Assembly (NCBI GenBank): GCA_030429235.1
Contig: JAUIDB010000010.1
Coordinates: forward strand, 77,334-141,333
Source of the DNA: Thermoanaerobaculia bacterium
GTDB lineage: Bacteria; Acidobacteriota; Thermoanaerobaculia; Multivoradales; JAIOJS01
Length of the DNA stretch: 64,000 nt
Direction: 5' to 3'
Shown: positions 5,164 to 10,081 of the stretch, one piece after another
How the letters are laid out: every line of letters starts with the position of its first letter
How positions within the stretch are numbered: the first letter of the stretch is position 1
The notes under the pieces: generated by a model
Told to the model about the DNA's origin: nothing
The model's input: only the letters and a program-made list of their open reading frames with translations
Database searches by the model: none
Position numbers and translations under genes: made by a program

Positions 5164-6539
5164 CGGCGGCGGTCGGTAGCACCTCGAACCCACTGCGCGT
5201 CGCGGTGGTCGGAAGCGGGCCGGCGGGAATGTACGCCGCCGCTGCCCTGATCGGAACTTCGGACCTCGAGGTCCGGGTCGACGTGTTGGAACGACTGCCG
5301 GCACCCTTTGGTCTGGTGCGCTACGGAGTGGCACCGGACCACCAGAAGATCAAGCGGGTTCAGCGGGTCTTTGATCGGAGTTTCGAGGACGAACGGATCC
5401 GCTTTCTGGGCAACGTAGAACTGGGGCGCGATGTCACTCGCGCAGAACTGCGGTCCAGCTACCACCAGATCGTTTACGCCGTCGGAGCGCAGGGAGATCG
5501 TCGACTCGGGATCGGCGGCGAGGACCTTCCGGGGAGCTGGTCGTCCACCGAGTTCGTGAACTGGTACAACGGCCACCCCGATCTGGCGACGGCGGACTAT
5601 CCCGTCGACGTGGAGTCGGTAGCGGTGGTCGGCATCGGCAACGTAGCCATGGATGTGGCGAGGATCCTCGCTACGGATCCGGAGGCGCTCGCCGCCACGG
5701 ATATCTCGGATCGAGCGCTGCAGGGCCTGGCCCGGAACCGCGTTCGGACCGTCCACGTGCTGGCGCGGCGGGGTCCGGTGCAGGCGAAGTGTTCACCCCC
5801 CGAGCTGAAGGAGCTGGGGGAACTCAAGGGGGTCAGTATCGGCGTGAACCCGGCTGATCTCGAGCTCGACGAGGCGTCGGAACGAACCCTCGCTGACGAC
5901 CGTGCCGCCGAGAAGAACTTGGCCCTGCTGCGGGAGTTCCTGGCCACCGAGCCGTCGAGCTCGGAGCGCTGTCGAATCCACCTCCACTTCCTTACTTCAC
6001 CCCGCGAGCTGGTGGCGGAGGAGGGCGCGATCGTGGCGGTGCGCTGCGAACGCAATCGGCTGGTCGAACTGGACGGCGGCTATCTCAACGCCGAGGGCAC
6101 CGGCGAGTTCTTCGACCTACCGGTGCAGCGGGTGGTTCGTGCGATCGGCTATCGGTCGGACCCTCTGGTCGATCTGCCCTACGACGAGCGACGGGGCGTG
6201 ATTCCCAACCTCGAGGGGCGGGTGCGCGATGGCGACCGAGTGCTCACGGGGGAGTACGTCGTAGGCTGGGTCAAGCGCGGCCCGAGTGGGTTGATCGGGA
6301 GCAACAAGGCCGACGCCAAGGCGACCGTGGAGTCGATGGTCGAAGATGCGCGGCGGGGCGAGCACCTGCAGCCCACGCTCGAGGGCCTCGAGGCTCACCT
6401 GGTGGCCAAGGAGCACCGCGTGGTCAACTGGTCCGACTGGCAGCGGATCGAGAGCGCCGAGAATTCCCGCGGCGAGGCGGCCGGCCGCCCGCGTGTCAAG
6501 TTCTTGACGGTAGAGGAGATGCTCTCGGTCCTCGACTAG
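5160..6539 (+). CDS. FprA/adrenodoxin-reductase-type ferredoxin-NADP+ reductase
   Basis: A 459-residue flavoprotein of the family that includes mitochondrial adrenodoxin reductase and mycobacterial FprA. It moves electrons between NADPH and ferredoxin. Evidence: the N-terminal FAD site VVGSGPAGMYAA, the family-typical PFGLVRYGVAPDHQKIK segment, an NADP site VVGIGNVAMDVARIL followed by a VHVLARRGP arginine cluster that suits the 2'-phosphate, and the late GWVKRGPSGLIGSNK motif that closes the FAD site. Translation starts at GTG 5160, overlapping the lipoprotein stop. No ferredoxin gene is adjacent. Confidence 0.9.
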   Translation: MTAAVGSTSNPLRVAVVGSGPAGMYAAAALIGTSDLEVRVDVLERLPAPFGLVRYGVAPDHQKIKRVQRVFDRSFEDERIRFLGNVELGRDVTRAELRSSYHQIVYAVGAQGDRRLGIGGEDLPGSWSSTEFVNWYNGHPDLATADYPVDVESVAVVGIGNVAMDVARILATDPEALAATDISDRALQGLARNRVRTVHVLARRGPVQAKCSPPELKELGELKGVSIGVNPADLELDEASERTLADDRAAEKNLALLREFLATEPSSSERCRIHLHFLTSPRELVAEEGAIVAVRCERNRLVELDGGYLNAEGTGEFFDLPVQRVVRAIGYRSDPLVDLPYDERRGVIPNLEGRVRDGDRVLTGEYVVGWVKRGPSGLIGSNKADAKATVESMVEDARRGEHLQPTLEGLEAHLVAKEHRVVNWSDWQRIESAENSRGEAAGRPRVKFLTVEEMLSVLD

Positions 6540-6562
6540 TTGCGGACGCAAGGCCGCCGGGG

Positions 6563-7312
6563 CTACGCCTGGCTCGGGGGCTTCGGGTCGACCGCGACCG
6601 AAGCCGGCATCGACAGGGTTCCCGGTGCGATCGGGCTGTGGAGATCGCGCCGGCGAGTCATGTCGGCGATCACGTTCTGTTTGAACACCCGAGGTTCGAC
6701 CTGGCCGAACCCGAGACTGTCTCGGTACTCTCCGATCTCGGTCAGCTCGAAGCGCAGTCGGACCTTCTTGAAGAGTCGGGGGAACCCCTCGCCCGGGATC
6801 TGCACGTGGTGGAGACCGCCGCTGTAGGCAAACAGGAGGCGACCGTCCGGAACGACCGCCAGGAGATCGGCCACGCCGCCACGGACCGTCATCGGTTTGC
6901 CCTGGGAGTCGAGGCCGTCGGCTCGCCGCATCCTTCCTTCGGGCAGGATGACGACCATCGACTCGTCGTCGATCGAGTCCTTGATGGCATCCCAGGTGTG
7001 GTCTCGGCGCCGGGTGATCGGCACGACTTCGGGAGCAAAGAGCCGGAAGATCCGGCCCACGATGGGGCGGTTGGCGGTCTTGTCGGCCACCGGCACCAGT
7101 CCATGCTCGGCGAGGCGTCGAATCAGGCCGTTCTCGACGCCACCGAGGAAGACTGGCTCCATCAAGCTGGTGTGGGTGAGCAGCGCAACGAGGTGGATCC
7201 CCTCCCACCAACGCTCGGGCGGTGGCTCGACCCAGCTGACTTCGTGGCGGTAGAAGAGCCGCGTGAGCCACTTGATCGAATAAAGAAAGGCGAAGCAGAG
7301 GGGGTTCTTCAC
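6563..7312 (-). CDS. PlsC-family acyltransferase-like protein
   Basis: A 249-residue protein resembling 1-acylglycerol-3-phosphate acyltransferases. Motif I is THTSLMEPVF, an HX4E form in place of the usual HX4D; the third block has ILPEGRM, matching the acceptor-binding PEG motif. The middle (DKTANRPIVGRIF, PITRRRDHTWDAIK) fits the PlsC fold. An N-terminal hydrophobic stretch may anchor it to the membrane. It starts at GTG 7312 with no Shine-Dalgarno sequence but with TACAAT 8 nt upstream. It is divergent from another PlsC-like gene 20 bp away. Exact acyl acceptor unknown; the Asp-to-Glu change in motif I makes activity less certain. Confidence 0.78.
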   Translation of the reverse strand: MKNPLCFAFLYSIKWLTRLFYRHEVSWVEPPPERWWEGIHLVALLTHTSLMEPVFLGGVENGLIRRLAEHGLVPVADKTANRPIVGRIFRLFAPEVVPITRRRDHTWDAIKDSIDDESMVVILPEGRMRRADGLDSQGKPMTVRGGVADLLAVVPDGRLLFAYSGGLHHVQIPGEGFPRLFKKVRLRFELTEIGEYRDSLGFGQVEPRVFKQNVIADMTRRRDLHSPIAPGTLSMPASVAVDPKPPSQA

Positions 7313-7319
7313 GGTCGGT

Positions 7320-7326
7320 TATTGTA
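7320..7326. promoter_or_regulatory. Overlapping divergent -10 elements for two acyltransferase genes
   Basis: TATTGT (7320-7325, plus strand) lies 7 nt before the ATG at 7333. TACAAT (7326-7321, minus strand) lies 8 nt before the GTG at 7312. The same seven bases can therefore serve as -10 in both directions. Neither gene has a Shine-Dalgarno sequence, and the intergenic space is 20 bp. Confidence 0.5.
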
Positions 7327-7332
7327 GCGTCG

Positions 7333-8730
7333 ATGAGCGACGGGCATCAGCCAACCTCGACCTATCCGCGGTGGGTCGCTTCGCTGGCCGGTTGGATCTG
7401 TCGCGTCTTCTTCCGGCAGGTCGTGATCGTGGGAGCAGAACTCGTGCCGCGGCAGGGGCCGGTTCTTTTCGTCGCCAACCACGGCAACGGTCTGGTCGAT
7501 CCGCTGCTGGTCATGGGGTTCCTTCCTGGCCGGCCCCGCTTCCTGGCCAAGAGCACCCTATGGAACAACCCGGTCCTGCGCCCCTTCCTGCGGCTGGGAG
7601 GGGTGATCCCGGTCTATCGGCGGCGGGACCCAGGCTTCGACGCGGCCAAGAACGCCAGCATGTTCGAGGCCTGTCGCAGGGTACTGGCGGCAGGGGGAGC
7701 GATTGCGCTCTTCCCCGAAGGCCAGAGCCATAGTGAGCCGTCCTTGACCGAGATCAAGACCGGGGCGGCGCGGATCCTCGAGGTTGACGACCCCGCCATC
7801 CGCCGCACCCGGATCGTGCCCGTCGGTCTCTACTTCGACGTCAAGAGCCGGTTTCGGTCGCGGACGCTGGTGCGGGTGGGGGTGCCGCTGGAGCTGACGG
7901 CTCAGCCGGCGGGTGAGGCGTCCGAAGAAGCGCGTCGGGCGGCGGTCCGCCGGCTGACCGATCGGATCGCCGAAGCCTTGCGCACTGTCACGCTCAACTA
8001 CGAATCCTGGGAGGACGCCCAACTGGTGGCCCGTGCGGCCGAGATCTACCTGCGCGAGGGGAGCGATTTGCCGCGGTCGACGCCACTGGCCGACCGAGTG
8101 GAGACGATCGCTCGAGTCCAGTCGGTGCAGCAGCGCTTGCTCGAGAGGGAGCCTTCGAGCTTGCAGCCGCTCCGCGAGACCCTGGCCCAGTACGACGCTC
8201 TGCTGCGCTCGCTCGGTCTGCGCGACGAGCAGGTAGCGGCCAACTATCCCGTACCCGCGGTGACCGGACATCTGGCGCGGCAGGGGCTGTTTCTGCTGTT
8301 CTGGCTACCGCTGGCTGCCGCCGGCATGGCCCTCAACGTCCTGCCCTTCGTGGCCTGTGGAATCCTGGCGGCCAGGTTCGCGCGCGAGCCCGACCAGCCG
8401 GCCACCTACAAGCTGTTCGGAGGCGTGGTGCTCTACCCGTTGAACTGGCTGGCTCTGGGGGTGGCGGCGGGCTTCTGGCTCGGCGGGACGGCGGCGCTGG
8501 CGGTCTTGGGGCTGGCGGTGGTCAGCGGCTGGGTCACCATGCACTTTCTCGACCGCGCGACGACGCTGGCCAAGGAGGTCCGGGCGTTCTTCACCCTACG
8601 ACTCGGTCGCTCGGCGGAGAACGGAACCGACGAAGCCTCCCTCTGGCGAGCGCTTCGGAGGCAGCGCGCCGCGCTACGTGCGGAATTTCTCGCATTGAGC
8701 GCCGCGATTGCCGATTCGGCTGAAACCTGA
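7333..8730 (+). CDS. Membrane PlsC-family glycerol(phosphate) acyltransferase
   Basis: A 465-residue phospholipid acyltransferase-like protein. The acyltransferase domain (~25-230) has ANHGNGLVDPLL (H and D five apart, as in one PlsC subgroup), VIPVYRR, and FPEGQSHSEP. A helical middle (~230-310) is followed by four hydrophobic segments (~315-430) and a charged C-terminus. This size with C-terminal membrane helices resembles bacterial proteins related to glycerol-3-phosphate/DHAP acyltransferases. ATG 7333 is preceded by TATTGT at 7 nt and no Shine-Dalgarno sequence. Divergent from a second acyltransferase-like gene, so the pair may act in lipid synthesis together. Confidence 0.85.
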   Translation: MSDGHQPTSTYPRWVASLAGWICRVFFRQVVIVGAELVPRQGPVLFVANHGNGLVDPLLVMGFLPGRPRFLAKSTLWNNPVLRPFLRLGGVIPVYRRRDPGFDAAKNASMFEACRRVLAAGGAIALFPEGQSHSEPSLTEIKTGAARILEVDDPAIRRTRIVPVGLYFDVKSRFRSRTLVRVGVPLELTAQPAGEASEEARRAAVRRLTDRIAEALRTVTLNYESWEDAQLVARAAEIYLREGSDLPRSTPLADRVETIARVQSVQQRLLEREPSSLQPLRETLAQYDALLRSLGLRDEQVAANYPVPAVTGHLARQGLFLLFWLPLAAAGMALNVLPFVACGILAARFAREPDQPATYKLFGGVVLYPLNWLALGVAAGFWLGGTAALAVLGLAVVSGWVTMHFLDRATTLAKEVRAFFTLRLGRSAENGTDEASLWRALRRQRAALRAEFLALSAAIADSAET

Positions 8731-8821
8731 CCCTGGGCTCGTCGTAGTTAGCTGTGAACGCCGGCTGCATGTCAGTCGGACCTCACGAGCTGCTTATCTT
8801 GAGTCTGGGAGTCGAGCCGTT

Positions 8822-10081
8822 ATGTCAAAGAAGATGTTGGTCGGTGTCGGAGTCGCCGCGGTGGTCCTCATGGGAGCCGGGTTTGCGATCAAGTCGAACA
8901 AGGGTGGAGACGAGGGAGTCACAGTCGAAACTGCTCCCGTCGAGCGCCAGACCGTCGTACAGACGGTCGAAGCTACTGGGCGGATTCAGCCCGTCACTCA
9001 GGTGAACATCAGCGCGGACGTCAGTGCCAAGATCACGCGCCTCGAGGTCAAAGAGGGTGACTGGGTCGAGAAAGGGCAGTTCCTGGTCGAGCTCGATCGC
9101 GAGCGACACCTCGCGGCAGTCGAGAGCGCCGAAGCGAGCTTGAACTCGGCCCAGGCCGGTGCCACTCTGGCCCGAGAGAACATGCGCAAGGCGGTCAAGG
9201 ACCACGAGCGCACCCAGGAGTTGTTCGACAAGAGCCTCGAATCGCAGGCCGCCCTCGATGCGGCCTACGCTCAGGCTGAAGTGGAGCGCGCACGCTACCG
9301 ATCGGCCCAGGAACAGGTGGAACAGGCTCGGGCATCGCTCAAGCAGGCGCGCGACGATCTGTCGAAGACGACGATTCACGCGCCGATGTCCGGAACGATC
9401 AGCAAGCTCAACAAGGAGATCGGAGAGATCGCCCTGGGCTCGCAGTTCCAGGAGGACGTGATCATGGAGATCTCCAACCTGGAAGGGATGGAGGCACTGG
9501 TCGACGTGGACGAGAACGACATCGTCTCGCTGTCGCTGAACGATGCGGCCTCGATCGAGGTCGATGCCCTCCCCGGGCTGACCCAGGCCGGCGAGGTGAC
9601 CGAGATCGCCAACAGCGCCAAGGTGTCGGGTCAGGGTACCAACGATCAGAAGACCGAGTTCGAGGTCAAGATCGCGGTGACCGATCCCTCCGATCAGCTC
9701 CGGCCCGGGATGACGGCGAGTGCCGACATCGTGGTGGCGACCCATGAGGACGTGATCGCCGTTCCGTTGCAGTGTGTCGCCGTACGGACCGTCGAACAGC
9801 TGAAGGGCAACGGTGGCGGAGACGACGCCGAGGGCGAAGGGGAAAGCCAGTGGACCCCCGACGAGGACGGGTTCGTCTCGGTGGTCTTCGTGGTCGAAGA
9901 TGGTGTCGCCTACGCACGGCAAGTCGAGACCGGGATTCAGAGCGAGAGCCACATCGAAATCCTCGACGGGCTCGGCGAGGGAGACATGGTCGTGGTCGGC
10001 AGCTACCGGGCCATCTCGCGCGATCTCGCCGACGGCGCGTCGGTGACCGTGTCCTCCGGCGACGACCAGATGGCGAAATAG
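8822..10081 (+). CDS. MacA-like periplasmic adaptor (HlyD family)
   Basis: A 419-residue membrane-fusion protein for an ABC efflux pump. One N-terminal transmembrane anchor (~4-22) is followed by a biotinyl-lipoyl half-motif ([12 protein letters not shown]), a long helical hairpin (~95-190), the returning lipoyl strand ([12 protein letters not shown]) and beta-barrel/membrane-proximal domains. A charged Gly/Glu-rich insert sits near residue 335. It is followed 13 bp later by an ATPase and then two permeases, the MacAB/LolCDE-type layout. The frame is open back to 8708, but the ATG at 8822 gives a normal anchor and is preceded by GGGAG. Likely exports peptides, lipids or toxic compounds; the substrate cannot be told. 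Confidence 0.9.

Follow-up and report, generated by a model that had tools for sequence, protein, structure and literature searches.

The two genes considered here lie in a window of 64,000 nucleotides, the whole stretch of DNA analysed, from contig JAUIDB010000010.1 of a Thermoanaerobaculia bacterium. They are divergently oriented, their start codons separated by only 20 bp. The elements of the locus are:

6563..7312, minus strand: LPLAT/PlsC-like acyltransferase gene, 249 aa, GTG start, without Shine-Dalgarno sequence
7312, minus strand: GTG start codon of the minus gene, read from the sequence
7312..7315, minus strand: predicted start of the minus transcript, leader of 0-3 nt, from the -10 spacing
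7313..7332, no strand: entire intergenic gap, 20 bp, from the sequence
7320..7325, plus strand: TATTGT, candidate -10 element of the plus gene, its first T at -13 from the ATG
7320..7326, no strand: heptamer TATTGTA common to both candidate -10 elements, giving TANNNT on either strand
7321..7326, minus strand: TACAAT, candidate -10 element of the minus gene, its first T at -14 from the GTG
7332..7333, plus strand: predicted start of the plus transcript, leader of 0-1 nt, from the -10 spacing
7333, plus strand: ATG start codon of the plus gene, read from the sequence
7333..8730, plus strand: PlsC-family acyltransferase gene (PF01553), 465 aa, ATG start, without Shine-Dalgarno sequence

The first-pass annotation had taken both products for PlsC-family enzymes. 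For the plus protein this holds: it matched PF01553 with E = 8.2e-20 and 71.4 bits, passing the gathering cut-off of 23. The minus protein matched no Pfam or NCBIfam family at E <= 0.001 and did not reach the PF01553 gathering score; any connection to PlsC would be one of fold. The top PDB match of its AlphaFold model (pLDDT 80) was PlsC of Thermotoga maritima (5kym; Foldseek E 4.9e-5, TM 0.53). Among 17 sequences of the minus family HTSL and PEGRM were invariant, and the E following HTSLx was nearly so; we take HTSL and PEGRM to resemble PlsC motifs. This LPLAT-like family is widespread, a scan of one collection having confirmed 249 loci (window 6563-7312; loci L104-L183). The titles among 80 of these loci include Acidobacteria, Gemmatimonadota, Planctomycetota and Desulfosarcina. 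Named relatives of the minus gene were mostly Acidobacteriota, and the closest among the matches listed was a Thermoanaerobaculia MAG. A single-protein scan of genome contigs with the plus protein confirmed no relatives.

The overlap of TATTGT on the plus strand and TACAAT on the minus strand, described in the first-pass annotation, was confirmed in the sequence. The two hexamers have five of six positions in common and lie 7 nt (TATTGT) and 8 nt (TACAAT) from their respective start codons. In the geometry given for shared -10 elements in PMC10268837, -11A and -7T of one direction lie opposite -7T and -11A of the other; TATTGTA shows this arrangement, the reciprocal positions being A7321 and T7325. 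T7320 is the only base required by the plus element alone. The start sites predicted from the sequence lie on opposite strands, 17-21 bp apart. A T at -18 is present in each direction if transcripts start at 7333 and 7315, and absent if they start at 7332 and 7314.

Neither gene has an alternative start codon between its start and the in-frame stop upstream. The nearest downstream start codon of the plus gene is at +90 nt, and the minus gene has none within 120 nt. The 20 nt before each start contain no GGAG, GAGG or AGGA. On the plus strand no second usable TANNNT was found from 7000 to the gap (about 320 bp); one further TANNNT nearby, TAGCGT at 7325 (plus strand), directly abuts the ATG. 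For the minus gene there is no other TANNNT within 240 bp, the nearest being at 7560. A -35 element was seen on neither side of the gap (best matches 3/6 and 2/6). A scan of positions 6300-8500 for promoters with both -35 and -10 elements, which is of little use for promoters lacking a -35, found none, against 0.2 in shuffled sequences. The same scan reported one terminator-like site at 6838-6860 (minus strand), within the minus gene.

These distances were compared with the rest of the genome, which has a G+C content of 66%. A simple codon-usage caller applied to 837 kb yielded 577 genes; it is crude, covering 82% of the first 437 kb and giving approximate start positions. In 62 of the 577 genes a TANNNT began between -15 and -12 relative to the start codon, where flanking positions predicted 10.4. 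This sharp peak is the leaderless signature as described for bacteria in PMC3160421, according to which leaderless genes make up 13.3% on average in three genomes of Acidobacteria. When seven genomes of the order were summed, 150 of 1521 genes had TANNNT at -15 to -12 (27.2 expected). All six other genomes exceeded expectation, clearly in G047 (25 versus 2.8) and weakly in G004 (7 versus 2.3). Both genes of the pair, with TANNNT at -14 (minus) and -13 (plus), fall within the peak. TACAAT was the most frequent hexamer of the peak set (7/62, counting the minus gene itself). The base two positions before the element (base -2) was G in 69% of the TA-led genes, and a G is found there on both strands of the gap. 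At least four -35 matches were present in 9 of the 62 TA-led genes as compared with 67 of all 577, so the TA-led class has no clear excess of -35 elements. About 45% of the called genes (263/577) carried neither a TANNNT nor a Shine-Dalgarno signal, and a missing Shine-Dalgarno sequence is therefore no proof of a leaderless start.

The double arrangement itself arose in 0.38% of random 20-bp gaps of genome composition and in 0.29% of shuffles of the gap's own letters. Once an element is present on one strand, however, its mirror partner appears in about 18% of random gaps (0.00376/0.02056), because the A at position 2 and the T at position 6 are shared. Symmetry by itself is thus weak evidence, and the case is carried by position, by the absence of other candidates and by conservation. 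The elements were also scored on a -10 profile made from 60 other TA-led genes, with 195 TANNNT as background. Among the TA-led genes the plus element ranked at the 5th percentile and the minus element at the 22nd; against the background they ranked at the 27th, below the median, and at the 54th, respectively.

Conservation of the gap had been proposed in the first-pass annotation as a check. The same head-to-head pair occurs in one other genome, on contig JAIOJQ010000283.1 (G045:C117) of Thermoanaerobaculia MAG_60, where it lies in a block syntenic with the window, preceded by a Pyr_redox_2 oxidoreductase gene and followed by HlyD, ABC and MacB/FtsX-type genes. The proteins are 59% and 68% identical to those of the window pair. 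Fourfold sites were identical at 61/171 and 42/97 positions (36% and 43%), and where the window has A or T at such a site only 4/26 and 2/18 (6/44) were retained, placing silent sites near saturation. TATTGTA, by comparison, is identical at 7/7 positions including T7320. Both start codons there lie at -15 from their elements, and no Shine-Dalgarno sequence was seen before the plus start. The left flank is likewise similar (GGTCGG in the window, GGCCGG in the relative), so conservation extends beyond the heptamer. Judged from this alignment, selection is likely to act on the heptamer; for the plus direction by itself, the additional conservation would amount to one base, T7320. The G045 bin was rated 7% contaminated and contains a further, more distant copy of each gene, so JAIOJQ010000283.1 may derive from a different organism.

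Outside this pair the two families differ. Of 78 minus-family orthologues, 21 had a candidate start with TANNNT at the leaderless position (ten control offsets, each 4 wide, gave 1 to 13); of 20 other plus-gene relatives, none did. In a co-occurrence survey of 143 loci, 116 of them with a minus-gene relative, both genes were found together only at the window locus, on the MAG_60 contig (L002, L032, L104) and in G040 (L003, L050, L150) and G006 (L008, L039, L167). In the last two the genes are adjacent tail-to-tail, so adjacency exists in the opposite orientation too. Both genes are also present on G022:C15, where they are convergent with about 1.7 kb between them.

The explanation we favour, and consider probable, is that the 20 bp between the genes act as a minimal bidirectional promoter and give rise to two leaderless or nearly leaderless transcripts. 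The position of the elements, the leaderless signature across the genome and the conservation of the heptamer in one diverged relative are observed directly; recognition by a sigma factor, the transcript starts and activity in the plus direction we infer. The housekeeping sigma factor would read the pseudo-symmetric 7-bp -10 element TATTGTA either way. A7321 and T7325 would serve as -11A and -7T for the plus gene and, through their partners, as -7T and -11A for the minus gene. Transcripts would begin 0-3 nt before the respective start codons, and with both mRNAs leaderless or nearly so a Shine-Dalgarno sequence would not be needed. Polymerase would occupy the gap in one orientation at a time. 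The ordinary activity of such a promoter would probably be low, independent expression of both enzymes, with no switch. The -10 shared by both genes, as first proposed, thus draws support from the leaderless signature, from the lack of another usable TANNNT and from the 7/7 identity, although the plus element scores low.

There is an appreciable, if clearly smaller, chance that only the minus gene uses the element, with TACAAT as its leaderless -10. TATTGT would then arise from the symmetry of -10 elements, and transcription of the plus gene would come from elsewhere, with a long leader, either from within the minus gene or by means of an alternative sigma factor. The prominence of TACAAT in the peak set points this way, as does the contrast between the minus orthologues and the plus relatives in bearing TANNNT at the leaderless position; in addition the plus element fits the genome's -10 profile poorly, and mirroring creates such elements by chance at the rate given above. 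Against this, the plus strand offers no other usable TANNNT between 7000 and the gap, and the relative in MAG_60 keeps T7320 with its plus ATG at -15, in the leaderless range, and no visible Shine-Dalgarno sequence. It is much less probable, in our estimation highly unlikely, that the gap contains no promoter at all and the pattern is a coincidence. Such a pattern does turn up in 0.3-0.4% of random 20-bp gaps, but coincidence would have to account both for 7/7 identity where silent sites are nearly saturated and for two genes at the leaderless position.

The first-pass annotation went further and saw in the overlap a built-in switch, in which polymerases would exclude one another and only one of the two acyltransferases would be expressed at a time. 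That only one direction could fire at any moment is reasonable on physical grounds, since the overlapping elements make simultaneous binding implausible, and strong activation one way can repress the other direction (PMC12825309). The anatomy, however, does not imply a switch. Basal activity did not suffice for competition at any of the five promoters tested in PMC12825309, the gap sequence revealed no site for an activator or operator, and on the genome profile the plus element scores poorly and the minus element in the middle range. We therefore regard the switch as unsupported and improbable, only a little less so than coincidence.

Bidirectional promoters with a shared -10 element are known from the work of Warman, Grainger and colleagues (PMC10268837, PMC12825309). 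Their start sites on opposite strands are 7-25 bp apart, mostly 18 (PMC10268837/PMC12825309), polymerase binding is mutually exclusive, and competition can arise once one direction is activated (PMC12825309). The window gap resembles them in its pseudo-symmetric -10, the reciprocal -7T/-11A positions, predicted starts about 18 bp apart and the exclusive binding of polymerase expected there. Unlike them, it would fill the whole intergenic gap, and each of its predicted products would be the mRNA of a full protein gene, with no leader or almost none. With the TA-led genes of Acidobacteria and Actinobacteria (PMC3160421, PMC3898074) it has in common a TANNNT just upstream and the lack of a Shine-Dalgarno sequence and of a -35 consensus, the last being reported also for leaderless genes of M. 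tuberculosis (PMC3898074). Such genes are described singly in the portions of these papers concerned, whereas the element in the window would serve two. Closely juxtaposed divergent promoters are described as a common feature (PMC3898074). One M. tuberculosis pair, prpD (Rv1130)/Rv1129c, is divergent with both transcripts leaderless, as is predicted for the window pair; unlike the latter, it is not stated in the relevant part of that paper to have one common -10. Among the titles and abstract openings listed from the open-licence literature, none points to one -10 serving two leaderless transcripts. The gap is probably a compact example of this known kind of two-way promoter; as a switch it is not proven.

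If this is correct, about 20 bp suffice for two promoters and two translation starts between divergent genes. The gap would also provide a clean test of the rules for bidirectional promoters, in that changes of T7320 and of A7326 should each kill one direction and changes of A7321 or T7325 both.

It might be thought that genomes rich in leaderless genes often have shared elements. This was rejected, since among 231 divergent pairs in the seven genomes one shared element was found, that of the window pair; such pairs thus look rare even where genomes bear the leaderless signature. TANNNT occurred at both starts in ten of the 231 pairs, the window included and alternative starts allowed. One further pair with a 20-bp gap, L073, where a TTG start is probably miscalled, lacked the element. 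The ordinary arrangement, in contrast to the shared one, is a separate TANNNT for each gene. It is seen in the window genome at the divergent pairs L074 (3219-3287) and L099 (3845-3895), where each gene has its own element of leaderless type.

When 2.89 Mb were scanned for TANNNTA flanked on either side by an ORF start at leaderless distance, 2 of 419 motifs qualified, those of the window and L128, which is too few for a claim of enrichment. Control motifs gave 9/10,788 (five A/T motifs together), 32/32,732 (GC...GC) and 35/44,266 (CG...CG). The scan omitted the MAG_60 contig (L002, L032, L104, L263) and the search loci L003-L060; L183 was outside its limits (offset -16). L183 (G031) was not counted as a further case, as a second TANNNT (TAGAAT) precedes an alternative GTG start there.

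In L128 (2187-2995) an orthologue of the minus gene, 50% identical, stands head-to-head with a gene for a FabI-type enoyl-ACP reductase (best model 4.5e-94, under that model's curated cut-off). The starts at 2972 and 2995 share TATCATA in a gap of 22 bp, at offsets of -15 and -14. The acyltransferase gene was divergent from fabI in 11 distinct loci: L128 (= L035), L040, L041, L043, L044, L046, L056, L080, L081, L082 and L267. The gaps range from about 22 to about 165 bp and exceed 100 bp in nine of the 11. The gap narrows to about 22-24 bp in one genus (G025, G031); the -10 is shared in G025 and ambiguous in G031. The fabI -10 was symmetric (TANNNTA), judged by eye, in 8 of the 11 loci, which are related to one another, as compared with 15 of 150 TA-led genes. 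With fabI called at E <= 1e-60, 11 of the 18 family f2 genomes had the two genes on the same contig, and no genome from the order's other families did. We suggest, tentatively, that this acyltransferase family has repeatedly been joined head-to-head to lipid genes through a shared leaderless -10, to plsC in the window lineage and to fabI in one genus of another family. About one fifth of the scanned bases were gathered around this acyltransferase gene, so the recurrence is suggestive only. If true, a single heptamer would jointly control membrane-lipid enzymes and fix where translation begins on either side.

Downstream of the plus gene, TATCTT at 8795 lies about 27 nt before the ATG at 8822 of a HlyD-like gene (8795-8824). 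To judge from this, the HlyD-ABC-MacB-type genes (to 13279) may have a promoter of their own and not depend on the shared one.
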